DNA of 32,446 nt from positions 1 through 32,446 of the forward strand of contig CACZUK010000050.1 in NCBI GenBank assembly GCA_902784305.1. The letters run 5' to 3'. The notes beneath the pieces are model-generated. The model was not told the DNA's origin. It saw only the letters and a program-made list of their open reading frames with translations, and did no database searches. Below are positions 2,549-30,142 of this stretch, one piece after another (position 1 is the stretch's first letter; every line of letters starts with the position of its first letter). Source of the DNA: Oscillospiraceae bacterium. Lineage in GTDB: Bacteria > Bacillota > Clostridia > Oscillospirales > Oscillospiraceae. The translations under genes were made by a program, and so were the position numbers.

Positions 2549-3544
2549 TCAGTTCTCTCCCACATAGGCCCCGTAGAGGGCGTCGTCGTTGACGGTTTTG
2601 CGGATGCTCTCGTAGACCGGGGCGGCGCTCTGCTTCATCTGCTCCAGCAGCTCGTCGCTCAGGGGCACGATTTCACAGCCGTGCTCCTCCATAATCTGGA
2701 TGCGGTCCGCGGCCCGCTCCGCCGCCTGCTCCCGGGCGTAGTCCTTGGCCAGGTCCGCCGCCTGCTGCACGATGCTCTGCTGCTCCGGCGTCAAGCCCTG
2801 GAAGAAGTCCTCGCTGACGATGAGGGAGATGAGGTGGGGCAGGTGGTTGGTCTGGATGGCGTACTTCTGCTGCTCGTAGAGCTTGGAGGAGACAATGACC
2901 TCGTAGGGGTTCTCCTGGGCGTCAATGGTGCCCTGGGAGAGGCCGATGTACACCTCGGAGAAGGTCATGGGCGTGGGGGCCGCGCCCAGGCTCTTCCAGA
3001 AGGCGATGTGGTTGGCGTTCTCCATGGTGCGGATTTTGATGCCCTTGAAGTCCTCCAGCTTCTCAACCTTCACGTTGGAGGACATGACGCGGAAGTTCTG
3101 GTCCGCCATGCCCAGCAGCCGGAAGCCGCCGGAGAGGTAGATGTCGTTGATTTTGCTCACGAAGTCCGGGTTGTCAAACACCGCCTGCACGTCGGCGATG
3201 TCGCTGTACACGCAGGGCAGGTCGAACAGGGCCAGCTTGGGCAGGTAGCTCACCTGAGGCGCGGTGTTCTGCACCACGAAGGGGATGTCGCCCACCTCGC
3301 AGCTCTCCAGCAGCTCCGTGTCGCCGCCCAGGGCGCTGTTGGAATAGACCTGAATCTTCATCTCGCCATTGGAGAGGCGCTCCACCTCCTCAGCGAACTT
3401 TTCCGAATAGAGCTGCGTCACCGTGTCCTCGCTGGAGGAGTGGGCCAGCACCCAGGCCATGTGATGGCTCTCGTCGGCGCAGCCGGTGAGGCACAGGCCC
3501 AGCAGCAGGCACAGGGCCGTGAGAAGGGCAAAACGTTTTTTCAT
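2549..3544 (-). CDS. dctP: TRAP transporter substrate-binding lipoprotein DctP
   Basis: This is the extracytoplasmic solute receptor of a TRAP transporter, which hands an organic acid (typically a carboxylate) to the membrane permease. It has 331 residues. The start at 3544 follows TAAGGAGGTG and opens a lipoprotein signal peptide (lipobox CLTGC, Cys22). DctP-family landmarks include GIKIRTMENANHIAFWKSLG with the carboxylate-binding arginine, and the GLSQGTIDAQENP motif. The lipid anchor suits a Gram-positive-type envelope, where a free periplasmic protein would be lost. It is the last gene of dctQ-dctM-dctP, 13 bp after dctM, and is followed by a terminator. The substrate cannot be told from the sequence. 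Confidence 0.93.
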   Translation of the reverse strand: MKKRFALLTALCLLLGLCLTGCADESHHMAWVLAHSSSEDTVTQLYSEKFAEEVERLSNGEMKIQVYSNSALGGDTELLESCEVGDIPFVVQNTAPQVSYLPKLALFDLPCVYSDIADVQAVFDNPDFVSKINDIYLSGGFRLLGMADQNFRVMSSNVKVEKLEDFKGIKIRTMENANHIAFWKSLGAAPTPMTFSEVYIGLSQGTIDAQENPYEVIVSSKLYEQQKYAIQTNHLPHLISLIVSEDFFQGLTPEQQSIVQQAADLAKDYAREQAAERAADRIQIMEEHGCEIVPLSDELLEQMKQSAAPVYESIRKTVNDDALYGAYVGEN

Positions 3545-3557
3545 CCTCGGCACCTCC

Positions 3558-4844
3558 TTACAGCAGCACCAGGCTGATGCCCGGAATGTAGGTGATGAGC
3601 AGCAGGGCCGCGAAGAACAGCACAATCATGGGCATGGCCTTCTTGGCAATCTCCGTCACGGGCACCTCCGACAGGGAGCTGGCCACGAACAGGTTTACGC
3701 CGATGGGCGGGGTCACGAAGCCGATGGCCAGGTTGCAGACCATCATAATGCCGAAATGCACCGGATTCATGCCAAAGGTGGTGACCACAGGCAGCAGAAT
3801 CGGGGTCAGAATCAGAATGGCCGGGGTGGTGTCCATGACCATGCCCACCACCAGCAGCAGCAGGTTGATGACAAGCAGCAGCACGATGAGGCTGTGGAAG
3901 TTGGCGGTGATCCAGGTGCTGACGGTCTGGGGGACCTGGAGCAGGGTCAGGATGCGGGAGAAGGCCACACTGGCCGCCAGAATGAACAGAATCGGGCCGT
4001 AGGTCCGGGTGGCCTCCACAAAGATGCCATACAGGTCCTTCAGCGTCAGGCTGCGGTAGACGAACAGGCTGATGATGAGGGCGTAGAACACGGAAATCAC
4101 CGCCGCCTCCGTGGGCGTGGCGATGGAGCCGTAGATGCAGCCCAGAATGATGACCGGGGTCAGCAGCGCCCAGAAGCTGTTCAAAAACACCTTGGCAAAG
4201 CCCAAATCCTTCAGCGGCTGCACCACACGGGCCACCGCGTCCTTGTCCTCGCCGTGGCGCGTGCAGTAGAACACCGCGTAGCCCATGAGCACAACGGCGA
4301 TGAGGATGCCGGGGATGATGCCCGCCAGGAACATGTCGCTGACGCTCACGCCGCTGGCCTGGGCGTAGAGGATGAAGGGGATGGACGGCGGGATGATGAC
4401 GCCCAGGCCGCCCGCCACCGCCACCAGGGCCACGCAGAACTTCTTGTCATAGCCCATCTCCAGCATCAGGGGGATGGTCATGGAGCCCACCGCCGCCACC
4501 GTCGCCGGAGCGGAGCCGGAGATGGCGCCGTAGAACAGGCAGGTGATGACCACCGCGCAGGGGATGCCGGCGGTGCGGTTGCCGATGAAGTAGGCGAACA
4601 CGTCAAAGATTTTGCGGGACACGCCGCCCTTGGCCATGATAATGCCCGAGAGCACGAACATGGGGATGGCCAGCAGGGTGAAGGAGTTCAGACCGCCCAG
4701 CATGGAGCGGACGATGTAGGTTCCGCCCACCGTGGAGCCGCCGATGAGGTTGGGCAGCATGGAGGCGATGCCCAGACACATGCCGATGGGGAAGGCACAG
4801 ATGAGCAGCACCACAAACAGGAGCATAATCAGCGCAGTGGTCAA
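3558..4844 (-). CDS. dctM: TRAP transporter large permease DctM
   Basis: This is the large, sodium-coupled permease subunit (about 12 transmembrane helices), 428 residues, normal for the family. I chose the TTG start at 4844: it follows GGAAGGGAGGG, gives the expected hydrophobic DctM N-terminus (TTALIMLLFVVLLICAFPIG) and overlaps the dctQ stop codon as TTGA, implying translational coupling. Longer ATG starts upstream would lie inside dctQ in another frame. Typical sequences include PIGMCLGIASM, ISGSAPATVAAVGSMTIP, GGLGVIIPPSIPFILYA and the C-terminal FVTPPIGVNLFVAS. It works with DctQ and DctP. Confidence 0.93.
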   Translation of the reverse strand: MTTALIMLLFVVLLICAFPIGMCLGIASMLPNLIGGSTVGGTYIVRSMLGGLNSFTLLAIPMFVLSGIIMAKGGVSRKIFDVFAYFIGNRTAGIPCAVVITCLFYGAISGSAPATVAAVGSMTIPLMLEMGYDKKFCVALVAVAGGLGVIIPPSIPFILYAQASGVSVSDMFLAGIIPGILIAVVLMGYAVFYCTRHGEDKDAVARVVQPLKDLGFAKVFLNSFWALLTPVIILGCIYGSIATPTEAAVISVFYALIISLFVYRSLTLKDLYGIFVEATRTYGPILFILAASVAFSRILTLLQVPQTVSTWITANFHSLIVLLLVINLLLLVVGMVMDTTPAILILTPILLPVVTTFGMNPVHFGIMMVCNLAIGFVTPPIGVNLFVASSLSEVPVTEIAKKAMPMIVLFFAALLLITYIPGISLVLL

Positions 4845-5332
4845 AACATTCTCCCTCCCTTCCGCAGATTGTGGATGGCCAGCAGAATGTACTGGAACAG
4901 CCGCACAGAGACCATCAGGAAGCCCACCAGCGGGGCCGCCTGCACCAGCGTCATGGGGATGCCCATGGCCGGGCTGGTGGAGCCGTTGTGCATGCACTGC
5001 TGCAAATAGCGCAGGGAGAAGGGCACCATGTACAGGCAGAAGGCCAGCAGAATCGCGTTGCGCACGATGTCGATGCTGTCCGCCAGCTTCTCCGGCAGCA
5101 GGGCCTCAAACTGGGTGATTTTGATGGAGATGCCCTTTTTGACACAGTAGCTAATGCTGATGAAGCCCGCCCAGATGAACAGGAAGCGCACCAGCTCCTC
5201 CGACCAGGTCAACGACTGGTGGAAGCAGTAGCGGCAGACGACCTGGATGATCATCAGCACCGCCATCAGGAACAGCAGCGCGACCATCAGGAACTCCTCC
5301 AGCCGCTCGTCAATGAGTTTAATCAGCTTCAT
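4841..5332 (-). CDS. dctQ: TRAP transporter small permease DctQ
   Basis: This is the small membrane subunit of the TRAP transporter, 163 residues with four predicted membrane helices (about residues 15-35, 48-66, 86-108 and 129-150). The motif CRYCFHQSLTWSEELVRFLF is typical of DctQ (FxxSLxWxEExxR). The start at 5332 follows GAGGTAATTC. It is the first gene of the operon, with a canonical promoter about 70 bp upstream, and its stop overlaps the dctM start. Confidence 0.92.
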   Translation of the reverse strand: MKLIKLIDERLEEFLMVALLFLMAVLMIIQVVCRYCFHQSLTWSEELVRFLFIWAGFISISYCVKKGISIKITQFEALLPEKLADSIDIVRNAILLAFCLYMVPFSLRYLQQCMHNGSTSPAMGIPMTLVQAAPLVGFLMVSVRLFQYILLAIHNLRKGGRMF

Positions 5333-5357
5333 GAATTACCTCGCCCTCTTTCTCTTT

Positions 5358-5378
5358 CTGATGGATACAACCCATCAG
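5358..5378. promoter_or_regulatory. Inverted repeat in the dctQ leader (possible operator)
   Basis: CTGATGG-N7-CCATCAG is a perfect 7-bp inverted repeat just downstream of the predicted dctQ transcription start and 26 bp upstream of the start codon. Size and position fit an operator (GntR-type regulators often control TRAP operons) or a small leader hairpin. No regulator gene is adjacent. Confidence 0.4.
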
Positions 5379-5400
5379 TTTGCACAAAGGATGTGAGCTT

Positions 5401-5429
5401 ATTTTAGCAAGAAACTATCAATATTGCAA
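5401..5429 (-). promoter_or_regulatory. Sigma-A promoter of dctQMP
   Basis: On the minus strand TTGCAA (5424-5429), 17 bp, TAAAAT (5401-5406). The spacer contains TATTGATAG, which recurs about 107 bp upstream at 5522-5530, so the pair may be regulator-binding sites. Confidence 0.7.
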
Positions 5430-5589
5430 GAGAGACAGGCGAAAAAAACGACAAATGTGGGGTATCTTTTGAAAAAGCGATAGTTTTTGATAAGGATAAT
5501 ATATGAATCTATGTGTAAAAGCTATCAATAAACCGTGGAGCAGCTCACGCTTTTGGGCGCGGGCGTGTCTCAGCTCACGCCCCAAGGCG

Positions 5590-5621
5590 CAAAAAAGGGG
5601 AAGGGGCCGGGCCCCTTCCCT
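5590..5621 (-). terminator. Terminator of the TrpF-like gene
   Basis: A perfect 9-bp G/C stem (GGGAAGGGG at 5598-5606 with CCCCTTCCC at 5612-5620) is followed on the minus strand by six T. It lies about 13 bp past the stop codon at 5634. Confidence 0.85.
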
Positions 5622-5633
5622 TTGGGTGTTCAT

Positions 5634-6266
5634 TCAGTTGAAGGAGCGGACCGCCTCCACGGCGCTGAGCAGCAGGGCGCGGTCCTTGACGCGCTCGGCC
5701 TCGCCGGGGCCGGTGGGCACCTCCACGCCGGAGCACAAATCCACGCCCCAGGGGTGGACGGTCTTGATGGCCTCGACCACGTTCTCCGGCGTCAGCTTGC
5801 CCGCCAGCAGGAAGTCCCGCGAAAAGCCCTCCACGGCGCTCCAGTCGGGCTTCTGGCCCGTGACCTGGGGGCAGTGGAGCAGGATGTGGTCCGCGGCGGA
5901 GTGCTCCGCGTAGGGGAGCACCACCTCGGGGGAGTGGACCTCGCAGGCCTTGATGATGGGCTTGCCGTAGCTCATCATCTGGAGGCTGGTGATGTACTCC
6001 TCCGACTCCGTGCCCTGGAGCTGAACCATGTCCACAATGCCCTGGCGCAGTGCCACCAGCACGTCGGAGAACTTGTCGTTGACGAACACGCCCACCAGCG
6101 GGATGTCGTCCCGGAGGCGGCGGCGGAGATTGCGGGCCTGGTCGAAGTCCACACAGCGCCAGAAGCGGCGGCAGAGCATGACGCTGGCCCAATCAGGGCG
6201 GGCTTCGTTGACGAAGTCGATGTCCTCCTCCCGACGCAGCCCGGAAATCTTGATTTTAATCGACAT
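5634..6266 (-). CDS. TrpF-like (phosphoribosylanthranilate isomerase fold) protein lacking catalytic residues
   Basis: The 210-residue protein follows the TrpF beta/alpha barrel pattern end to end: IKISGL at the N-terminus, PLVGVFVN (residues 56-63), VDMVQLQG (78-85), LLAGKLTPENV (153-163) and GVDLCSGVEV (174-183). In working TrpF enzymes the N-terminal motif is KICGL/T, with Cys as general acid; here it is Ser8. The catalytic Asp of the LLD motif is replaced (ILLHC, His131), and the GGTG phosphate loop is altered to VTGQ. The loss of both catalytic residues argues against isomerase activity. No other tryptophan genes are nearby. The start at 6266 follows GGAAGGG. It is a monocistronic unit with two upstream promoters and its own terminator. 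It could be a repurposed binding protein. Confidence 0.75.
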   Translation of the reverse strand: MSIKIKISGLRREEDIDFVNEARPDWASVMLCRRFWRCVDFDQARNLRRRLRDDIPLVGVFVNDKFSDVLVALRQGIVDMVQLQGTESEEYITSLQMMSYGKPIIKACEVHSPEVVLPYAEHSAADHILLHCPQVTGQKPDWSAVEGFSRDFLLAGKLTPENVVEAIKTVHPWGVDLCSGVEVPTGPGEAERVKDRALLLSAVEAVRSFN

Positions 6267-6362
6267 TGCAGCTTTCCCTTCCACACGATTATTCAACAAT
6301 CACACGCGCCGTGCGCTCCCCTGCCCGGGGAGGGCGTCCAACGCGCAAAACACACAGGCTCT

Positions 6363-6776: not shown

Positions 6777-6876
6777 CTGCCTCATCGCTTACACGGCGCA
6801 TGGGCTCCAGGACCCGGCCAAACCCAGGCTGGAATGATGTCCGGACAGAGGAGGCCGGGAAGTGGGCAATTGCAAG

Positions 6877-6910
6877 GGTGCGGAGGGAGCATGCCAACAG
6901 GCGCAGCCTG
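6877..6910 (+). repeat. Extra right-end unit of the repeat abutting fabZ
   Basis: The segment GGTGCGGAGGGAGC...AGGCGCAGCCTG repeats 6743-6776 with a few changes and ends directly at the fabZ stop codon (6911). It forms an ACAGGC-TGC-GCCTGT hairpin right after the fabZ stop. Confidence 0.65.
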
Positions 6911-7324
6911 TCACTTTACCAAAGCAAAGGAGAACTCCGCGCTGACGCACAGCTTGCCGTTCACATAGCCCTTGGCGGCGCACCAGTAGAAGGGGCCCTT
7001 CTGCTTGATGACGCTGCTCTCACTCTCCAGAGTGTCGCCGGGCCGGACGGGGTTCTTGAAGCGCACCTTGTCCAGGCTGGTGAACATGGGGGTGGTGTCG
7101 GGGGTGGTCAGGTCCGCCAGCAGCACGCAGGCGCCCTGGGCCATCATCTCGCACAGGATGACGCCGGGGACCACCGGGTTGCCGGGAAAGTGGCCCTTGA
7201 GAAAGAACTCCTCCCCGGACACGTGGTATTTGGCGTGGGCGACGCCGTCCACCACCTCGGCCTCGTGGACCAGCAGCATATTGTCCCGATGGGGGATGAT
7301 TTTCTTGATTTCTTCCTGATTCAT
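6911..7324 (-). CDS. fabZ: 3-hydroxyacyl-ACP dehydratase FabZ
   Basis: FabZ dehydrates (3R)-3-hydroxyacyl-ACP to trans-2-enoyl-ACP in type II fatty acid elongation. The protein is 137 residues, normal for FabZ. It carries the hot-dog fold signature: IIPHRDNMLLV at the N-terminus, then FFLKGHFPGNPVVPGV with catalytic His45, and CEMMAQGA with catalytic Glu59. The start at 7324 lies only 3 bp after the stop of the accB-like gene, with GATGAGGA inside that gene's 3' end as the ribosome site, so translation is probably coupled. It is the last gene of the fab operon. No strong terminator follows; a repeat-derived hairpin sits at the stop codon. Confidence 0.95.
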   Translation of the reverse strand: MNQEEIKKIIPHRDNMLLVHEAEVVDGVAHAKYHVSGEEFFLKGHFPGNPVVPGVILCEMMAQGACVLLADLTTPDTTPMFTSLDKVRFKNPVRPGDTLESESSVIKQKGPFYWCAAKGYVNGKLCVSAEFSFALVK

Positions 7325-7327
7325 GGA

Positions 7328-8179
7328 TTATTCCTCATCTTTTCGTTCAGGGTCCGGCTCCTCCGCGGGGGCTTCGGGCGCTTCGGACTCCTCCACGGGT
7401 GTTTCGGCGGCTTCGGCTTCCCCGGAGGGCGCTTCGGCCTCCTCAGAGGGCTCCGGAGCGGACTCGTTCCAGGGGTCGGGGTCCTCCGAGGCGGGGTGGA
7501 GCAAATCGCTCAGCAGCGCGCCGCCCCGGCGCACCCCCGCCACGCCCAGCGCCACGGCGGCCTTTGCGGTGTTCACCACCGCCTCCGCCGTGCGGGCCAC
7601 GGCCTCCTTAGCCGCGTCGGTGTCCAGCTTGACGGGAGGCTCCACAGGCTCGTCGTCCTCCTCCGCGTCAGACGTTTCGGGGGCGGACTGAGGCTCGTAC
7701 TGCGGCACCTCGCCCACCACGGGCATTTCCTCCCGCTCGGGCGCGGCCTCGGGGGCCTCGGGCGCTTCGGCTTCGGGTGCGGTCTCAGATTCCTCGGCCT
7801 CGCTCAGCTCCACGTCGTAGGCGCCGGGCGTTCCGCCCGCCAGGTACTCGTCCCGCTTGGTCTTGAGGTAGCTGGCCCCGGCCTTCACGGTGCCCACCAC
7901 CGCGCTGCCCGCCTTCACCGCGCCCTTGCAGACCTTCTCGGCGGCCTCGTTCAGGTCAATTTCCACGTTGGTGCCCTCGTCTTCCACAGGCTCGGCGTCC
8001 TCCGCCTCCGGGGCTTCGGGGGTCTCCGGCGCGGCGGCGCGGAAGAGGTTCCAGGGGCGCTGGGGGGCAGGCGGGGTGAGCTTGAGGCGGATGGAGGTGC
8101 TGCGCTCCTTGTACTCCAGCTCGCAGACCCCGGCTTCCTTCATAAACGCAACGATCTCACGGATCTCATTCAGCTTCAT
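7328..8179 (-). CDS. AccB-like protein without a biotinyl domain, acidic Pro/Ala/Glu-rich
   Basis: The 283-residue product occupies the slot between fabF and fabZ where accB (biotin carboxyl carrier protein) normally lies in Firmicutes. The first ~34 residues match the AccB N-terminus in pattern (MKLNEIREIVAFMKEAGVCE then LEYKERSTSIRLKL). After that there is no biotinyl fold and no AMKM biotinylation motif in any frame. Instead two Ala-rich amphipathic helical segments (about 75-112 and 184-228, phasin-like in look) alternate with acidic, disordered P/E/A-rich stretches (40-74, 121-182, 229-283). The MKL start at 8179 is chosen because it aligns with AccB; AAAGGA lies 12 bp upstream. It cannot act as a normal carboxyl carrier. 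Function unknown; a scaffold for the fatty-acid complex is only a guess. Confidence 0.75.
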   Translation of the reverse strand: MKLNEIREIVAFMKEAGVCELEYKERSTSIRLKLTPPAPQRPWNLFRAAAPETPEAPEAEDAEPVEDEGTNVEIDLNEAAEKVCKGAVKAGSAVVGTVKAGASYLKTKRDEYLAGGTPGAYDVELSEAEESETAPEAEAPEAPEAAPEREEMPVVGEVPQYEPQSAPETSDAEEDDEPVEPPVKLDTDAAKEAVARTAEAVVNTAKAAVALGVAGVRRGGALLSDLLHPASEDPDPWNESAPEPSEEAEAPSGEAEAAETPVEESEAPEAPAEEPDPERKDEE

Positions 8180-8319
8180 AGTCCTTACCATTCCTTTCTG
8201 GCAATGTGGCAGGTGAGGAGCGCCGCTTCGGCTCCTTCTGGGGCCATTATCGCACACAGAGGGAGGAAAGGGTGTGAACGAATGGTAAATTTCCGATGAA
8301 AAAGAGTTAAAAAACCGAT

Positions 8320-9549
8320 TTAAATGGCTCTGAAGGCGACGCAGCCGTTGTGGCCGCCGAAGCCCAGGGACAGGGACAGCGCCGCGTCCAGAGGCGTCTC
8401 CACGGGGGTGTTGGGGGTCACGTCCAGATCGCACTCGGGGTCGCTGACCCGGTAGCCCGCGGTGGGGGGCACGGTGTCCCGGCTCAGGGCCAGCACGGTG
8501 ATGACCGCCTCCGTGGCGCCCGCGGCGCCCAGCATGTGGCCGGTGGCGCCCTTGGTGGAGCTGACGTGCAGCTTCGCGGCGTTCTCCGCGCCGAAGGCCC
8601 GCTTGATGGACAGAGTCTCGATGCGGTCGTTCATGGGCGTGGAGGTGCCGTGGGCGTTGATGTAGCAGCGGGCGGGGTCGAAGTCCCCGGCGGTGGACAG
8701 GGCCTGCGCGATGGCGTCCCCGCCGCCCTCACCCTCGGGGTCGGGAGCGGTGATGTGGTGGGCGTCGCAGGTGGAGCCGTAGCCGACTACCTCACAGTAG
8801 ATGTGAGCGCCCCGGGCCTTTGCGTGCTCATACTCCTCCAGCACCAGACAGGCCGCGCCCTCGCCCATGACGAAGCCGTTGCGCTCCTTGTCGAAGGGGA
8901 TGGAGGCCCGGTCCGGGTCCTCGGAGCAGCTCAGGGCCTGGCAGTTGATGAAGCCCGCCACGGCCACGGGCACGATGGTGGCCTCCGCGCCGCCGGCGTA
9001 CATGGCGTCGGCGTAGCCGTGGAGAATGGCCCGGTAAGCCTCACCCAGAGCGTGGGTGGAGGAGGCGCAGGCGGTGGCGATGTCCATGCAGGGGCCCTTG
9101 CAGCCGTGCCTGATGGCCACGGTGCCCGCGCTGGCGTTGCCCATCATGTTGGTGATGGCGTAGGGGGACACCCGGCGGGGCCCCTTCTCGGTGAGCTTGT
9201 GCTCCTCCTCCACGGTGGTCATCAGACCGCCGATGCCGGAGGAGAAATAGCAGCCCACGCGCTTGGGGTCGATGCTGCCGTCGAGGCCGGAGTCCTGCCC
9301 GGCCTGGGCCGCGGCGGCCACGGCGAACTGCACCACCAAATCGCTGCGGCGCACCTCACCGCGCTCCATATAGAGGAGGGGGTCGAAGTCCTTCACCTCG
9401 GCGGCCAGGGTGGCCTTGAAGCCGGTGGGGTCAAAGCGGGTGATGGGGGCGATGCCATGCTTTCCGGCCAGCAGAGCCGTCCACATGCTCTCCACATCGT
9501 TGCCCACGCTGGTGACAGCGCCCAGGCCGGTGACAACTACTCTTCTCAT
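8320..9549 (-). CDS. fabF: 3-oxoacyl-ACP synthase II FabF
   Basis: FabF condenses malonyl-ACP with acyl-ACP, the elongating step of fatty acid synthesis. The protein is 409 residues, a full-length KAS II. The catalytic triad is visible: Cys161 in DIATACASS, His300 in INAHGTSTPMND and His338 in STKGATGHMLGAAG, with Lys333 alongside. The start at 9549 gives the standard MRRVVVTGLGAVTS beginning and follows AGAAAGGA. It lies between fabG (164-bp gap) and the accB-like gene (140-bp gap). Those gaps hold small hairpins but no gene that I can see. Confidence 0.96.
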   Translation of the reverse strand: MRRVVVTGLGAVTSVGNDVESMWTALLAGKHGIAPITRFDPTGFKATLAAEVKDFDPLLYMERGEVRRSDLVVQFAVAAAAQAGQDSGLDGSIDPKRVGCYFSSGIGGLMTTVEEEHKLTEKGPRRVSPYAITNMMGNASAGTVAIRHGCKGPCMDIATACASSTHALGEAYRAILHGYADAMYAGGAEATIVPVAVAGFINCQALSCSEDPDRASIPFDKERNGFVMGEGAACLVLEEYEHAKARGAHIYCEVVGYGSTCDAHHITAPDPEGEGGGDAIAQALSTAGDFDPARCYINAHGTSTPMNDRIETLSIKRAFGAENAAKLHVSSTKGATGHMLGAAGATEAVITVLALSRDTVPPTAGYRVSDPECDLDVTPNTPVETPLDAALSLSLGFGGHNGCVAFRAI

Positions 9550-9713: not shown

Positions 9714-10463
9714 TCACATGGCGATGCCGCCGTCCACCCGGATGACCTCGCCGGTGATATACTTCGCGTCGTCGCTGGCCAGGAAGGCCACGCAGGCGGC
9801 GATGTCCTCGGCCTTGCCCATGTGGCCCATGGGGACGGTGGCAATCAGGGCCTTGAGGGCGTCCTGGTCCATGGAGGCGGTCATGGGGGTCTCAATGGCG
9901 CCGGGGGCCACGGCGTTGCAGGTCACGCCCCGGGTGGCCAGCTCCCGGGCCACGGTCTTGGTCAGGGCCACCACGCCGCCCTTGGAGGCGGAGTAGTTGG
10001 CCTGGGCGGCGTTGCCCATCAGGCCGGAGACGGAGGAGATGTTGATGACGCGCCCGGCCTTCTTCTTCATGAAGCCCCGGTAGCAGGCCTTGATGGTGTT
10101 GAACATGCTCTTCAGGTTGATGTCCAGCACCAGGTCCCAGTCCTGCTCGCTCATGGCCAGCAGCACCTTGTCCCGGGTGATGCCCGCGTTGTTGACCAGA
10201 ATGTCGATGCCGCCCAGCTCCTTGCTCAGGGCCTTGACGGCGATCTGCACGGCCTCGTAATTGCTCACGTCCACTCGGCGGAACAGGGCCATCACGCCGC
10301 ACTGCTCCGCAATGGCCTTTGCGGCCTCGTCGCCGGCCTCCTCGGGGCACAGGTCGAAAATCACGACGTTGGCGCCCTCCTGGGCCAGCCGCTGGGCGAT
10401 GGCGTAGCCGATGCCGCGGGCGGCGCCAGTGATCAGGGCGTTCTTGTTTTCCAGTTTACCCAT
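9714..10463 (-). CDS. fabG: 3-oxoacyl-ACP reductase FabG
   Basis: FabG is an NADPH-dependent short-chain dehydrogenase that reduces 3-oxoacyl-ACP. It has 249 residues, with cofactor motif TGAARGIG (12-19), NNAG (91-94) and the catalytic Ser144 (NISSVSG), Tyr157 and Lys161 (YSASK). The C-terminal ITGEVIRVDGGIAM is typical of FabG. The start at 10463 follows AAAGGAAG and yields MGKLENKNALITG. It sits 39 bp after fabD in the fab operon. Confidence 0.96.
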   Translation of the reverse strand: MGKLENKNALITGAARGIGYAIAQRLAQEGANVVIFDLCPEEAGDEAAKAIAEQCGVMALFRRVDVSNYEAVQIAVKALSKELGGIDILVNNAGITRDKVLLAMSEQDWDLVLDINLKSMFNTIKACYRGFMKKKAGRVINISSVSGLMGNAAQANYSASKGGVVALTKTVARELATRGVTCNAVAPGAIETPMTASMDQDALKALIATVPMGHMGKAEDIAACVAFLASDDAKYITGEVIRVDGGIAM

Positions 10464-10502: not shown

Positions 10503-11420
10503 TCAGCCCTTCACGGCCGCCAGGGCGGCGTTCAGCGTCTCCGCGTTCTCCACGTTCAGGGCCAGCGCGTCGGGCAGAATCCGCTTGACCAGCCCGGTGA
10601 GGGTGGCCCCGGGGCCTACCTCTATAAAGGTATCCACGCCGTTCCGGGCCAGGTCCTCCACAATGGCCTGCCAGCGCACGGGGTTCTCCACCTGGGCGCT
10701 GAGCAGCTCCTGGAACTGGCCGGGCTCGTAGGGCCGGGCGGTGAGGTTGGAGTAGAGGGGATACCGGGGGGTCTGGAACCGCATCTGCTCCAGCAGGGGC
10801 CGCAGACCCACGGCGGCGGAGTGCATGAAGGGGGAGTGGAAGGCTCCGGCCACCTTGAGGGGAATGGCCCGGCCTCCGGCGGCCTTGACGCTCTCCCGGA
10901 AGGCGGGCATGGAGGTGCTCAGCCCCGCGCACACGGTCTGGGCGGCGGAGTTGTAGTTCACGGGATAGACCTGCTCGGCCTGCGCGCACAGCGCCTCCAC
11001 CTGCTCCGGGGAGAGCTTCACCACGGCGCACATGCCCGTGCTCACTTCATCGGAGGCGGCCTGCATCAGCTCGCCCCGGCGGCACACGAAGCGGAAGGCG
11101 TCCTCCCGGCTCACCGCCCCGGAGAAGCCCAGCGCGGCCACCTCTCCCACGGAGAAGCCCGCCAGAAAGTCCGGCTCCACGCCCGCCTCGGTCAGAGCCG
11201 CGGCGGCGGCCAGCTCCACGGCGTACATGTCCGGCTGTGTGTTGGAGGTGACGGTCAGCTCCTCCTTTGTGCCGGTGAAGCACTGCTCTGAGGTGCCCGG
11301 CCGGAGGGTGTCCGCCATGGCGAACACAGCCGCCGCCGCAGGACTGACCCGGGCGAGCTCCTGCCCCATGCCGGGGTACTGCGCCCCCTGACCGGAGAAT
11401 AAAAACGCGATTTTACCCAT
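10503..11420 (-). CDS. fabD: Malonyl-CoA:ACP transacylase FabD
   Basis: FabD loads malonyl groups onto acyl carrier protein. The protein is 305 residues. It starts with the typical KIAFLFSGQGAQYPGMG; the nucleophile is Ser90 in GFSVGE (the usual GHSLGE is varied to GFS, as in many Firmicutes) and His195 lies in AGAFHSPFM. The start at 11420 follows GGAAGGGAG. It lies 130 bp downstream of acpP, separated by a terminator-like hairpin, so its expression may be lower than that of acpP. Confidence 0.95.
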   Translation of the reverse strand: MGKIAFLFSGQGAQYPGMGQELARVSPAAAAVFAMADTLRPGTSEQCFTGTKEELTVTSNTQPDMYAVELAAAAALTEAGVEPDFLAGFSVGEVAALGFSGAVSREDAFRFVCRRGELMQAASDEVSTGMCAVVKLSPEQVEALCAQAEQVYPVNYNSAAQTVCAGLSTSMPAFRESVKAAGGRAIPLKVAGAFHSPFMHSAAVGLRPLLEQMRFQTPRYPLYSNLTARPYEPGQFQELLSAQVENPVRWQAIVEDLARNGVDTFIEVGPGATLTGLVKRILPDALALNVENAETLNAALAAVKG

Positions 11421-11550: not shown

Positions 11551-11775
11551 TCAGTCCAGCTTGCTCTCGATGAACTTGACCAGCTCACCGATGGTGGCGA
11601 CCTTCTGGTCCAGCTCCAGCTCGGTGTCCAGCTCCTCCTCCAGCTCCATGACCATCTCAACGGTCTCCAGGGAGTCGATGCCCAGGCTCTCGAAGGTGGT
11701 GTCCAGGCTCAGCTCGGAAGCGTCGCGGCCAGTGTGGTCGGCCAGAACGGCAATGACTTTTGCGGCAATATCCAT
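11551..11775 (-). CDS. acpP: Acyl carrier protein
   Basis: This is the small acidic carrier of growing acyl chains, 74 residues. The phosphopantetheine site is Ser35 in LGIDSLETVEMV, and the four-helix ACP pattern is complete. The ribosome site GGAGGA is 9 bp upstream of the ATG at 11775. It is the first gene of the fab operon and has its own strong promoter. fabH and fabK, which often precede acpP in Firmicutes, are not present in this window. Confidence 0.96.
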   Translation of the reverse strand: MDIAAKVIAVLADHTGRDASELSLDTTFESLGIDSLETVEMVMELEEELDTELELDQKVATIGELVKFIESKLD

Positions 11776-11869: not shown

Positions 11870-11898
11870 ATGATAGCCGACAATTCCCCGTTTGTCAA
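11870..11898 (-). promoter_or_regulatory. Sigma-A promoter of the fab operon
   Basis: Minus strand TTGACA (11893-11898), 17 bp, TATCAT (11870-11875). It gives a leader of about 90 nt before acpP that contains a GACAGC/GCTGTC hairpin. Confidence 0.8.
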
Positions 11899-19981: not shown

Positions 19982-22123
<2,142 letters not shown>

Positions 22124-22236
22124 TCGGAAACCTTCTTCCTGAATCCCGGACACTGGGTCCGTCGGGTGATCCGCGGCGGACAGAAAGGGGCGCATCCGTC
22201 CCGGCCGCGCTCGCACAAATGTGCGCTGCACCGGTT

Positions 22237-23268: not shown

Positions 23269-25848
23269 ATGGATACTTTTCGCAAATGGAATCCCGTGGA
23301 GGACCTGGAGGACACCGACGCGCTGCTCAACAGCGGGGCCAAGCCCGACGAGTCGGAGTTCTCTCTGGAGGACATCCTCCAGGAATACGGTGCGGACGAG
23401 CTGCCCGTGATGAAGGAGGCCCACCGCAAGCCCCTTCCCGTGCTGGAGGAGATGCAGGAGCTGGAGCAGTCCCTGACCGCCCCGCCCGAGGAGCCGGAGC
23501 CGTCGGAGGAGCCTGAAAAGCCCGCCGAGACCGTTCCGCCCGCGCCTGTGCTCCTCTTCCCGGAGCGGCAGGAGCCCGAGGAGCCGGAGCCCGAACCGGA
23601 GCCGGAGGAGCCTGAAACTGAGCCGGAACCGGAGCCGGAACCCGAGCCTGAGAATCCGCCGGAGCCGGAGCAAGCCCCCGCGGAGGAGGAAGCCGCGTCC
23701 GAAGCGCCGGAGGAGGAGCCCATGGACGCCAGCGCCACCGCGGCCTTCATCGGACAGCAGGTGAGCCGTGCCATCACTCAGCAGGAGGAGGAGAACACGG
23801 AGCACAACACCACGGTGAACGGCCTGCGGCAGTTCTTCGTGGAGGCCCGCCGCCGCACCGCGGAGAAGAAGCTGCGCCGGGAGCAGCAGCTACGGGAAAA
23901 GGCTGCCGCCGCCGCCATGGCCGAAGCCGCCGCCGCGGTGAAGGAAGAGGAGGAGCTGGAGAAGGAGGAGGCCAAGGTGGTCGCCATGCCGGTGTCTCCC
24001 ATGCAGCCCCTTCGCCGGAGCTTTGGCCGGATTCAGGACAAGGCCAACGACTTCGCCGACAACATGTACAACCAGGCCGCAACTCCCGAGGAGGACAAGA
24101 AGGGCACCTACGTCTCCGCCATCGACACCGAGGACGAGGTGGAGGACCCCGGCGCCCCCCGCCGGGCCGGAAACGCCCCGCGGCCCAAAAAGCGCTACGC
24201 CGGCGCGCCGGACACCTCCGCGGAGGAGCTGGCCGCCCGGTATCGGCTGGGCCTCCAGTTCCTCCGCCAGAGAATCTACTATGTGCTGCTCATCGCCCTG
24301 GCCGCCCTGTATCTCTCCGTTGCCCCCAGTCTGAACCTGCCCCTGCCGGGCGTGCTGACGGGGCACCGGGTGGCCTCCGCCATCCTGACCTGGGTGCTGG
24401 CCTTTGGCAGCGCGGTGGGTCTGGACGTGCTGTGGCTGGGCATGACCGCCCCCTTCCGGGGCAGGCCCGGGATGCACAGTCTCACCGCGCTGGCGGTCAT
24501 CGCCACCCTGCTGGACGGCCTGTATTCCACCTTTGTGGGCCGGGACGGCCCCCTGCCCTTCGCGGGCATGGCGCTGATGGGCCTGTTCTTCGCCATGGTG
24601 GGCACCTATCAGCGCAAGCTGGCCCTCTACCTGGCCTGCCGCACCGCCGCGGGCGCCGCGCAGCCCTACCGCGTGACGCTGGACGAGGGCAAGTGGAAGA
24701 ATATGCCGGCCTTCTGCAAGGAATCCGGCACCTCCAGAGACTTTGGCAGCCAGATTCAGGGCATGGACGGCGCGGAGCGCATCTACCGGGTGTGCGTGCC
24801 CGTGCTCGCCGCCGCCGCCCTGGTGGGCGCGCTGGTGGCCTCCGTGGGCCGGGGCCATCCGACCATGGTCACCTGGTGCCTGTCCGCCATTCTGGTGGCC
24901 TGCGCGCCCCTCACCGGCCTGATGTCCTTCGGCTACCCCTATCTGCGCCTGACCCGGCGGCTGGACCGCTCCGGCGCCGTGCTGGCGGGCTGGGACGGCG
25001 TGGAGTCCATGACCGGCAAGGCCAACATTCTGGTCAAGGATGAGGATTTGTTCCCTGAGGGCAGCATCAGCGTCAAGTCCATCAAGCACGCCGAGGACGT
25101 GTCCCTGGAGAAGCTCACCGGCTGCACCGCCTCCATGCTGCGCTCAGCGGGCAGCGGCCTCTATCACATCTTCGACTCCGAGCTGCGGCGTCAGGGTGGC
25201 TTCTACCGCCGGGTGGACGACCTCCAGTGCTATGAGGCCGGCGGCCTGAGCGCCGACATCCGGGAGGAGCAGGTGTTGGTGGGCACCTACGGCTTCATGA
25301 CCGTCATGGGCGTGCCCCTGGAGAGCGGCATCAAGGTCAAGCAGGCGGTTTACTGCGTCATCAACCGCCGTTTGCAGGGCGTGTTCTTCCTGCTGTACGA
25401 TATGTCCCACTATGCCAGGACCGCCATGAGCGCTCTGGTGCGCAGCGGCGTGCGGCCGGTGCTGGTGACCCGGGACTTCAACGTCATCCCCAGTATGCTG
25501 CAAAAGCTCTTCGGCCTGCCCGTGGAGGAGATGGAATACCCGCCCATCCAGCGGCGGCGGGAGCTCTCCGAGCCCGGCGAGCCCCACAACAGCGTGCTGG
25601 GCGCGCTGCTGACCCGGGAGGGCATGGGCGCCTACTCCGACGCCGTCATCGGCGGGCGCAGGCTCTACACGGTGGTGCGCCTGAACGCGGTGCTCTCCGT
25701 GCTGGCCTCCGCGGTGGGGCTGGTGTTCTCCTTCCTGATGACCTGCATGCAGGCCTTCGACTCCCTGAGCCCCACGACCATGCTGGTGTTCCTGCTGCTG
25801 TGGGCGGTGCCCACGCTGGCGATTTCCGGCATTGTGGACCGGTTCTGA
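23269..25848 (+). CDS. P-type-ATPase-like membrane protein lacking catalytic motifs, with acidic N-terminal extension
   Basis: The 859-residue product has an acidic, disordered N-terminal region (1-330) including an E-P dipeptide-repeat stretch (about 72-150) and an Ala/Glu/Lys helix (195-235). Hydrophobic helices follow at about 335-353, 366-390, 403-421, 429-446, 507-527, 533-549, 805-826 and 834-854. The region after the sixth helix reads like a metal-type P-ATPase: ACAPLT in place of the CPC-containing motif, then GAVLAGWDGVESMTGKANIL where G-x-x-I-x-G-x-x-x-E-x-L precedes the phosphorylation site. The DKTGT motif is replaced by VKDEDLFPEG, TGD by TRDF, and no GDGxND is seen; the actuator domain is short and lacks TGE. 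I infer a catalytically dead P-type-ATPase fold. The start at 23269 follows AGAAGGAAG. A terminator follows. Confidence 0.7.
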   Translation: MDTFRKWNPVEDLEDTDALLNSGAKPDESEFSLEDILQEYGADELPVMKEAHRKPLPVLEEMQELEQSLTAPPEEPEPSEEPEKPAETVPPAPVLLFPERQEPEEPEPEPEPEEPETEPEPEPEPEPENPPEPEQAPAEEEAASEAPEEEPMDASATAAFIGQQVSRAITQQEEENTEHNTTVNGLRQFFVEARRRTAEKKLRREQQLREKAAAAAMAEAAAAVKEEEELEKEEAKVVAMPVSPMQPLRRSFGRIQDKANDFADNMYNQAATPEEDKKGTYVSAIDTEDEVEDPGAPRRAGNAPRPKKRYAGAPDTSAEELAARYRLGLQFLRQRIYYVLLIALAALYLSVAPSLNLPLPGVLTGHRVASAILTWVLAFGSAVGLDVLWLGMTAPFRGRPGMHSLTALAVIATLLDGLYSTFVGRDGPLPFAGMALMGLFFAMVGTYQRKLALYLACRTAAGAAQPYRVTLDEGKWKNMPAFCKESGTSRDFGSQIQGMDGAERIYRVCVPVLAAAALVGALVASVGRGHPTMVTWCLSAILVACAPLTGLMSFGYPYLRLTRRLDRSGAVLAGWDGVESMTGKANILVKDEDLFPEGSISVKSIKHAEDVSLEKLTGCTASMLRSAGSGLYHIFDSELRRQGGFYRRVDDLQCYEAGGLSADIREEQVLVGTYGFMTVMGVPLESGIKVKQAVYCVINRRLQGVFFLLYDMSHYARTAMSALVRSGVRPVLVTRDFNVIPSMLQKLFGLPVEEMEYPPIQRRRELSEPGEPHNSVLGALLTREGMGAYSDAVIGGRRLYTVVRLNAVLSVLASAVGLVFSFLMTCMQAFDSLSPTTMLVFLLLWAVPTLAISGIVDRF

Positions 25849-28822: not shown

Positions 28823-28840
28823 AAAATGGAGGTTATCCCG

Positions 28841-30142
28841 ATGAACAAGAAATTTATCGCCCTGATTTTGGCTCTGGCCATGGCCCTGAGCCTGCTCACC
28901 GGCTGCAACAGCGGCAAGAGCGGTGACGCTTCCGCCTCCGCCGCCACGGACCCCGCCGATGAGCAGACCAAACTCATCATGGAGGCCGTGGCCCAGGTCA
29001 TCCCCGAGGAGGCCCAGGCGGACGTGGTGAGCTACCTCACCGACGGCGCGGTGAAGGCCGACACCGTTATCCTGAAGGCCGGTGACAAGGACGTCACCGC
29101 CGGCTACTACCTCTTCTGGCTGGGCCGGGAGCTGAGCAGCGTGAGCTCCTACTTCTCCCAGTACGGGATGACCATGGACCTGGACCAGGAGTTCAGCGAG
29201 GGCCAGAGCCTGCTGGACTACCTGAAGGAGCAGTCCCTCAGCGCCGTGAAGACCTACTGCGCCATTGAGCAGAAGGCGGAGGAGAAGGGCGTCAAGCTCA
29301 GCGCCGAGCAGGAGAAGCAGCTGGAGGAGTACGTCGCCAGCCTGGACACCGCCTCCGTCACCTACTACGGCACCACCGTGGAGGACCAGCGCGCCACCTA
29401 CACCCAGAACCTGCTCAGCGACGCCCTGAACGGCAAGCTCAAGGAGACCGGCGAGCTCAACGCCACCGACGAGACCATGGCCGACTACGTCAAGGACAAC
29501 GGCTACTACAACTGCCGCTACCTCCTCTTCGAGGTCGCCCAGGACGCCGACGAGAAGACCGACGCCGAGCAGAAGGCCAAGGCTCAGGCCGCCTATGACG
29601 AGCTGAGCAAGCTCTCCGGCGAGGAACAGCTGAAAAAGTTCCAGGAGTACCAGAAGGAGAACCCTGACGGCAACACCGACGAGTTCCAGTTCGACGCCAC
29701 CTCCACCATCGACGAGGGCTTCCGCGCCAAGGTCGAGGGCATGGAGGAGAACGAGCTGGGCATGACCGACAAGACCAGCTTCGGCTACTTCGTGCTGCTG
29801 CGCCTGCCTGTGAACACCGAGACTCTGAAGGAGAACTACCTGTCCGAGGCGTACTCCAACCTGGTGAAGCAGTGGGTCGAGGAGCTTCCGGTCGAGGAGA
29901 CTGAGGAGATGAAGAAGCTGGACCAGAAGGTCGCCGCCACCAAGCTGCTGGAGCTCCAGTCCAGCATGAACGACGCCGCCCAGAAGGCCGTTGCCGCCGC
30001 TGACGCCTCCTCCGCGGAGGGCTCCGCCGCAGCCATTGCCGAAGCCTCTGTGGTGGCCGACGCCGCTGCTTCCACTGACGCCGAAGCCTCTGTGGTGGCC
30101 GACGCCGCTGCTTCCACTGACGCCGACGCCTCCGCCTCCTGA
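28841..30142 (+). CDS. PrsA/SurA-like lipoprotein (peptidyl-prolyl isomerase family) with a repetitive Ala/Ser tail
   Basis: This 433-residue lipoprotein resembles extracytoplasmic foldases. The ATG at 28841 has GGAGG 8 bp upstream and begins a lipoprotein signal (MNKKFIALILALAMALSLLT, Cys22). The body is Glu/Lys/Tyr-rich and helical, as in SurA-N/PrsA chaperone domains (LLDYLKEQSLSAVKTYCAIE, KGVKLSAEQEKQLEEYV). A weak PPIC-like stretch (NCRYLLFEVAQDADEKTDAE ... ELGMTDKTSFGYFVLLRLP) lies at about 220-330. The last ~50 residues are low complexity, including two exact copies of a 14-residue unit beginning EASVVADAAAST. Isomerase activity is uncertain. It probably helps secreted proteins fold. 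Confidence 0.78.
   Translation: MNKKFIALILALAMALSLLTGCNSGKSGDASASAATDPADEQTKLIMEAVAQVIPEEAQADVVSYLTDGAVKADTVILKAGDKDVTAGYYLFWLGRELSSVSSYFSQYGMTMDLDQEFSEGQSLLDYLKEQSLSAVKTYCAIEQKAEEKGVKLSAEQEKQLEEYVASLDTASVTYYGTTVEDQRATYTQNLLSDALNGKLKETGELNATDETMADYVKDNGYYNCRYLLFEVAQDADEKTDAEQKAKAQAAYDELSKLSGEEQLKKFQEYQKENPDGNTDEFQFDATSTIDEGFRAKVEGMEENELGMTDKTSFGYFVLLRLPVNTETLKENYLSEAYSNLVKQWVEELPVEETEEMKKLDQKVAATKLLELQSSMNDAAQKAVAAADASSAEGSAAAIAEASVVADAAASTDAEASVVADAAASTDADASAS
30041..30124 (+). repeat. Two exact 42-bp tandem repeats in the lipoprotein tail
   Basis: 30041-30082 and 30083-30124 are identical, beginning GAAGCCTCTGTGGTGGCCGA. The unit is a multiple of three, so copy-number change would keep the frame. 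Confidence 0.95.

Follow-up and report, generated by a model that had tools for sequence, protein, structure and literature searches.

What does a protein do that begins like the biotin carboxyl carrier protein (AccB, or BCCP) of acetyl-CoA carboxylase (ACC), is encoded between fabF and fabZ and carries no biotinyl domain? The question is raised by a stretch of 32,446 nucleotides from an Oscillospiraceae bacterium (contig CACZUK010000050.1 of assembly GCA_902784305.1), hereafter the window. The gene concerned, here called X, lies in a minus-strand series of fatty-acid synthesis genes in the order acpP-fabD-fabG-fabF-X-fabZ, and our reading of this strand agrees with the preliminary description, which had placed X in the slot between fabF and fabZ. 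The features referred to below are the following:

6911-7324, minus strand: fabZ; the best model is slightly below its cut-off
7328-8179, minus strand: X, 283 aa, ATG start; AccB N-terminal unit followed by an acidic helical tail, no biotinyl domain
7499-7621, minus strand: tail helix 2 of X (residues 187-227), modelled as long, amphipathic; a copy of a repeated module
7841-7954, minus strand: tail helix 1 of X (residues 76-113), modelled as long; a copy of the repeated module
8072-8179, minus strand: residues 1-36 of X, AccB-type segment, modelled as a helix (3-15) and two strands (20-26 and 29-35)
8246-8280, minus strand: promoter- or operator-like element CGTTCAC-N17-TGTGCGATAAT, 66 nt before the ATG of X
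8320-9549, minus strand: fabF; TIGR03150 above cut-off
9714-10463, minus strand: fabG; TIGR01830 above cut-off
10503-11420, minus strand: fabD; TIGR00128 slightly below cut-off
11551-11775, minus strand: acpP, named by eye from the DNA
11870-11898, minus strand: promoter-like TTGACA-17-TATCAT before acpP

The X protein starts with MKLNEIREIVAFMKEAGVCELEYKERSTSIRLKL, continues with a Pro/Ala stretch and then passes into acidic low-complexity sequence, so that Asp and Glu together amount to 71 residues over the whole protein versus 25 for Lys and Arg. Acidic low-complexity stretches are also found elsewhere in the window, at the C-terminus of an FtsH-like protein and in the extended N-terminal region, rich in E and P, of a membrane protein (19982-22231 and 23269-25848; names given by eye), and thus the acidic style of the X tail may be a habit of this genome. 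A lipoprotein-like protein (28826-30142) has a C-terminal Ala/Ser/Asp-rich repeat containing EASVVADAAASTDA twice. Directly downstream of fabZ there are TRAP transporter genes and a trpF-like gene (2549-6299); a trpF-like gene also occurs about 6 kb past fabZ in loci of clade B (see below). We rejected a malonate route via these TRAP genes, since, among the loci compared, the TRAP-fab linkage is kept only in the near relative G006.

Taken alone, the match of the window's X to the BCCP model TIGR00531 is weak: the first 42 residues align with profile positions 1-35 at E = 0.0042 and 17.6 bits, and the whole protein scores 16.4 bits, below the curated cut-off of 115.2. The model reached E ≤ 1 in 13 of the 14 X proteins, the window's included (best, 2.2e-4), while a Pfam search of X gave no match. 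A profile of 51 AccB rows of the same order (G263 being present twice), built on their first 42 residues, found all 15 X N-termini given to it, namely those of 13 complete genes, of the long G009 gene and of one gene cut by a contig end. Their E-values ran from 3.7e-11 to 2.2e-4, with G009 the weakest and the window's X at 2.6e-6. Among 2000 shuffled X N-termini the best value was 0.87, and all 15 X N-termini scored above it; among 1500 six-frame ORFs the best unrelated frame had E = 5.6, the five better frames being X genes themselves. Profile-profile alignment of X with the AccB N-terminus covered 39 of 39 columns with a probability of 98.7 and E = 1.6e-16 (a single comparison), and when the X N-terminal profile was run against 177,635 PDB sequences, the top match was E. 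coli BCCP (4hr7_B; E = 0.0037, register 1-38). In the reverse search, a profile of 14 X proteins matched 12 of 250 family genomes, four of them genus members. In the eight others only the N-terminal part matched, and all eight frames were AccB with the biotin motif, followed by fabZ. At the level of sequence, descent of X from AccB is thus well supported: the AccB N-terminal segment and the position between fabF and fabZ are both present. We rejected chance similarity, as every shuffle scored worse. The earlier statement that X begins like BCCP is therefore borne out, and the HMM check proposed with it yielded a significant similarity.

To examine the loss of the biotinyl domain, we built an HMM from the C-terminal 82 residues of the AccB rows and searched with it all six frames of the fabF-fabZ interval in 40 genomes, using pieces of at least 15 residues. 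Matches were obtained in 13 accB slots (E = 6.2e-42 to 1.4e-39), nine of them from genomes in the training set and four from outside it. The 13 X slots examined gave no match at E ≤ 10 in any of their six frames; G009, G020, G023 and G043 were left out of this test, and the G129 interval came out empty. Such a result excludes a frameshifted or misassembled biotinyl domain for these 13 slots and confirms that X, lacking the domain with its lysine motif, is not a biotin carrier of the AccB/BCCP kind. The accompanying claim that no AMKM motif exists in any frame holds for the slot, although the genome does encode one carrier with EAMKMEN on another contig (C12).

How common is X? Of 32 genomes of the genus, 17 have X; in 13 fabZ comes immediately after fabF, G014 has a true accB, and G046 shows only a distant fabF, its slot being unread. 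The 17 include G020, in which X is split over two contigs, and G023 and G043, in which it is cut by a contig end; the 14 complete genes come from separate assemblies. A search with the window's X alone detected X in 11 of 40 genomes, the window's among them, missed the X genome G009 and gave no match in 12 slot-less genomes (the 13th, G045, was outside the search set). Otherwise, presence and absence were judged by reading the slot, so that absence means absence from the fabF-fabZ slot. The group consists of uncultured bacteria, and the relatives' loci (16) are metagenome-assembled records. Overall, the survey of relatives that had been suggested shows X in the same slot in just over half of the genus genomes. 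In G009 (L078/L153), X is much longer (450 aa), with a different tail and no conserved upstream element. Six slot-less genus genomes (G005, G007, G008, G016, G022 and G024) have an additional fabF with about 52% identity to that of the window.

In a fabF tree of 42 rows, the 12 accB rows group apart from the rest (98/96). A single change accounts for the X rows, though it is poorly supported (49/59; found in 51% of bootstrap trees); for the slot-less rows two changes are required. Such a topology would be most simply explained if accB had been converted to X no later than in the ancestor of the genus and X had then been lost at least twice.

Constraint on X was estimated within clades C (seven genomes, 21 pairs), B (four genomes, six pairs) and A (two genomes, one pair). 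In each clade pN/pS was lowest, among the regions compared, in residues 1-36: 0.040 (C), 0.085 (B) and 0.155 (A). The helical modules gave 0.058 in clade C, 0.155 and 0.434 in B, and 0.344 and 0.422 in A, and sequence outside the N-terminus and the modules gave 0.211 (C), 0.283 (B) and 0.573 (A). Pooled over all 14 genomes, residues 1-35 gave 0.485, which counts against uniform constraint and which we read as saturation together with between-clade differences. These substitution ratios support purifying selection on X within clades.

The module is a helical unit of about 45 residues, present in two copies in clades A and B and in one copy in clade C. In 11 of 15 pairs of copies the alignment score beat all 1000 shuffles, some of these pairs being near relatives; the score was reached by 5 shuffles in 1000 within clade A, by 47 within clade B, by 2 for copy 2 of the window's genome (G000) against copy 1 of G006, and by 182 for clade A copy 2 against clade B copy 1. 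Helix 2 is amphipathic, shuffles being as high in 30 (G000), 56 (G006), 115 (G015) and 51 (G017) of 2000 cases, and in 20 of 2000 for G000 over a narrower angle range. Helix 1 was not significantly amphipathic, with 255 (the window's X), 525 and 408 of 2000 shuffles as high, and 156 in the run with the narrower angle range. Clade C has an extra Lys/Ala-rich helix, equalled by no shuffle.

Modelled alone, X had a mean pLDDT of 49.6; with 13 relatives (a 14-row alignment) the mean was 52.8 and the pTM 0.18, a model that is weak overall. In this model the N-terminal helix and the two strands have block pLDDT values of 82, 74 and 65, the two tail helices are at about 55-74, and most of the sequence that separates or follows them is below 50. 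The tail has acidic stretches, probably disordered, with one or two copies of the helical module. A Foldseek search of the PDB with the X model returned 70 matches, none at E ≤ 0.001. Two long tail helices amid low-confidence stretches were thus predicted, in line with the preliminary description, but its likening of them to phasins fails: no phasin family model matched any of 14 X members at E ≤ 1, and we rejected phasin membership.

In bacterial fatty-acid synthesis, the reaction of acetyl-CoA carboxylase is taken to be the first committed step. The genus keeps its FAS II genes (fabF and fabZ in the loci read, and fabH above cut-off in 25 of 32 genomes), and a biotin carboxylase (PF02785) was found in only one of the 32, G014, an outlier of 4.8 Mb with 10% contamination. 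This combination raises the question of where malonyl-CoA comes from. Among control genomes, 13 of 14 were positive for the biotin carboxylase, and whereas accC might lie on a missing stretch of one incomplete genome, this is unlikely for 31. A carboxyltransferase domain (PF01039) was present in 23 of the 25 genus genomes searched, the two without it being G001 and G005 (76% and 67% complete). In 22 of the 23 it was a single match, of the MmdA kind of about 500 residues or a fragment, and a pair of the accD/accA type was seen only in G014. TIGR00531 was below cut-off in both genus genomes included in that search, G000 and G044. No genus genome had fabK above cut-off (0/32), G014 being just below it (447.5 versus 453.1 bits). 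In G010 (L191, G010:C59), a short fabK-like fragment (E = 4.9e-10, in a 96-residue frame) lies upstream of fabD; as G014 has a fabK-like gene at the same place, the fragment is probably a remnant of a longer ancestral fab operon.

The window's genome contains one biotin_lipoyl match, on contig C12, together with OadA-like, OadG-like (114 aa, named by eye) and OadB genes; an mmdA-type gene stands alone on contig C10. In curated models MmdA, OadA and the carrier are below their cut-offs, and OadB is above. The proposed search of the genome for a second accB and for accC, accD and accA thus ended with one strong biotin carrier beside genes of the OadA/OadB type and one gene of the MmdA type. Because this genome shows such genes and a single small biotin carrier, the idea that the real carboxylase is encoded elsewhere is not supported as far as an ACC is concerned. 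Across the genus, biotin_lipoyl was strong (E ≤ 1.1e-17) in 24 of 32 genomes and reached E ≤ 0.001 in 28; the four of the 32 with no match (G001, G002, G004 and G021) are all X genomes. In seven family genomes of other genera the AccB model matched only weakly (E = 1e-9 to 1e-15). Six of them (G067, G182, G102, G298, G305 and G312) had no fabF match, so that FAS II may be gone there, and G283 had distant synthases only. Among the genomes looked at, then, the genus stands out in that it keeps FAS II genes without ACC. In literature searches, no title or opening of an abstract among the papers listed described an AccB N-terminus without a biotinyl domain or an ACC-less FAS II.

With this gene complement, X might be a glue subunit that holds together a malonyl-CoA-producing transcarboxylation complex, composed of the MmdA-type carboxyltransferase, the OadA-like protein and the small biotin carrier. 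The window's genome has all of these genes on contigs C10 and C12, and non-catalytic subunits of bacterial acyl-CoA carboxylases and plant BADC, both named in PMC11926652, would be precedents. However, an MmdA-type gene and a strong biotin carrier are also found in genus genomes without X, and the four X genomes named above have no biotin_lipoyl match at all. Moreover, X is not adjacent to any of these genes, and models that stay below curated cut-offs do not fix the substrate. We therefore regard a glue subunit as rather unlikely.

An alignment of the leaders of 13 X genes first revealed a conserved block upstream of X, the element listed above. Within the window the pattern CGTTCAC-N-TGTGNGANAAT has a single occurrence, and 100 shuffles yielded none; it was found in 46 of 194 loci, with many genomes represented more than once. 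Counted per genome, 16 of the 17 X genomes have the element, 60-86 nt upstream of the ATG and with a spacer length of 16 or 17; in G023 it differs in the first base, and G009 is without it. None of 13 slot-less genus loci and none of 28 accB loci had it. A scan for sigma-70-type consensus over 6850-8400 found no promoter, so that only the -10-like part and the conservation of the element make it promoter-like. Such a conserved element suggests that X, and perhaps fabZ, may have a start site of its own.

These observations bear on the view that X regulates fab expression, the autoregulatory part of AccB surviving to sense or set transcription through the upstream element. The element precedes X and was seen in neither the slot-less nor the accB loci, and James and Cronan are said to have found in 2004 that E. 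coli AccB autoregulates accBC, its N-terminal part being responsible. Yet no DNA-binding family was recognised in X at a convincing score, the tail is strongly acidic, and the element could simply be a promoter. A regulator of this sort is, in our opinion, unlikely.

One might also suspect a relic, that is, an accB decaying after the loss of ACC, with its open frame on the way out. The slot is empty in 13 of 32 genus genomes, neither accC nor a fabK above cut-off was found, and the tail is of low complexity and variable length. Decay is nevertheless hard to reconcile with a long complete open frame in 14 genomes, N-terminal pN/pS of 0.04-0.16 within clades, a helical module common to different clades and a conserved upstream element, and we consider it quite improbable. 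An artefact, either a biotinyl domain lost in assembly or an accidental N-terminal likeness, is exceedingly improbable: the window's genome is in 168 contigs and contig ends interrupt three X genes (G020, G023 and G043), but 14 complete X genes from separate assemblies agree, the N-terminal similarity beats every shuffle and the 13 X slots hold no biotinyl remnant in six frames, and we rejected an assembly deletion on these grounds.

The reading that we tentatively favour, although it falls short of an even chance, is that X is the assembly end of AccB, kept as an oligomerisation unit with helical arms and serving, without a catalytic function, to organise or regulate a FAS II that lacks ACC. 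The ancestral gene would have retained its N-terminal segment and its place between fabF and fabZ, while the biotinyl domain was lost and an acidic helical tail took its place. Since the AccB hairpin self-assembles in Chloroflexus aurantiacus BC1, X may by analogy form a small homo-oligomeric hub. Its arms would carry helices whose charge is neutral to slightly positive and of which at least the second is amphipathic; these might bind FAS II partners or the membrane, and X would in this way organise or regulate fatty-acid synthesis rather than form part of a carboxylase. Descent, loss of the domain, constraint, predicted shape and linkage are supported; oligomerisation, partners and role are inferred. 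Thus, the earlier proposal of a gutted and re-used accB is supported as far as the lost domain and the re-use of the remainder are concerned (N-terminal homology, slot, within-clade constraint), but not with respect to the carboxylase elsewhere.

Several points weigh against such a hub. The hairpin that serves as precedent belongs to a fused BC-BCCP protein, whose authors attribute the cohesion of the E. coli complex to the BCCP core, and the equivalence with X is one of position and predicted shape, not of sequence match to 8HZ4. The low overall confidence of the X model, the absence of a Foldseek match at E ≤ 0.001, the non-significant amphipathicity of helix 1 and the pooled pN/pS also count against it. 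According to PMC10863985, AF2 models place the AccB N-terminal domain only on AccC; as AccC was not found, the known partner of this segment is missing here. Any model that makes X indispensable has to face the 13 congeners without X in the slot. A broader scenario, which appears rather improbable to us, combines both themes: malonyl-CoA would come from transcarboxylation by MmdA, OadA and the biotin carrier in the absence of ACC, and AccB would have turned into a biotin-free, self-assembling hub with its own promoter, organising the Fab enzymes or tying them to the new carboxyl donor. Under the favoured reading as well, an AccB N-terminal end conserved without its enzyme offers a natural route to ask what this poorly understood segment does alone.

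Finally, we would like to compare X with known systems. X resembles AccB/BCCP (TIGR00531; 4hr7_B) in its first 36 or so residues, which align in register, in the Pro/Ala-rich stretch that follows and in the fabF-accB-fabZ position; it differs in having no biotinyl domain, no AMKM or AMKL motif and an acidic helical tail, and no biotin carboxylase (PF02785) partner was found in the window's genome. Plant BADC is likewise a BCCP relative without biotin, with a non-catalytic role at fatty-acid synthesis, as we infer for X. However, BADC is a BCCP homologue lacking the AMKL motif, whereas X has no biotinyl-type sequence at all. According to PMC11926652, BADC proteins are 25-30% identical to BCCP and form assemblies with both BC and BCCP; for X no BC partner was found. 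The glue subunits of bacterial acyl-CoA carboxylases, named in the same paper, are non-catalytic partners in biotin enzymes as well, while X derives from AccB itself. A further parallel would be the BCCP hairpin of C. aurantiacus BC1 (8HZ4). As PMC11077971 reports, four BCCP N-terminal hairpins form an eight-stranded barrel there, hold the tetramer and contact BC, and deletion of the hairpin gives dimers; heteromeric BCCPs widely carry such an N-terminal extension, but the E. coli complex is held by core domains. In BC1 the hairpin is fused to BC and bridges BC dimers; in X a hairpin is predicted in the N-terminal unit too, here joined to an acidic tail with helical modules.
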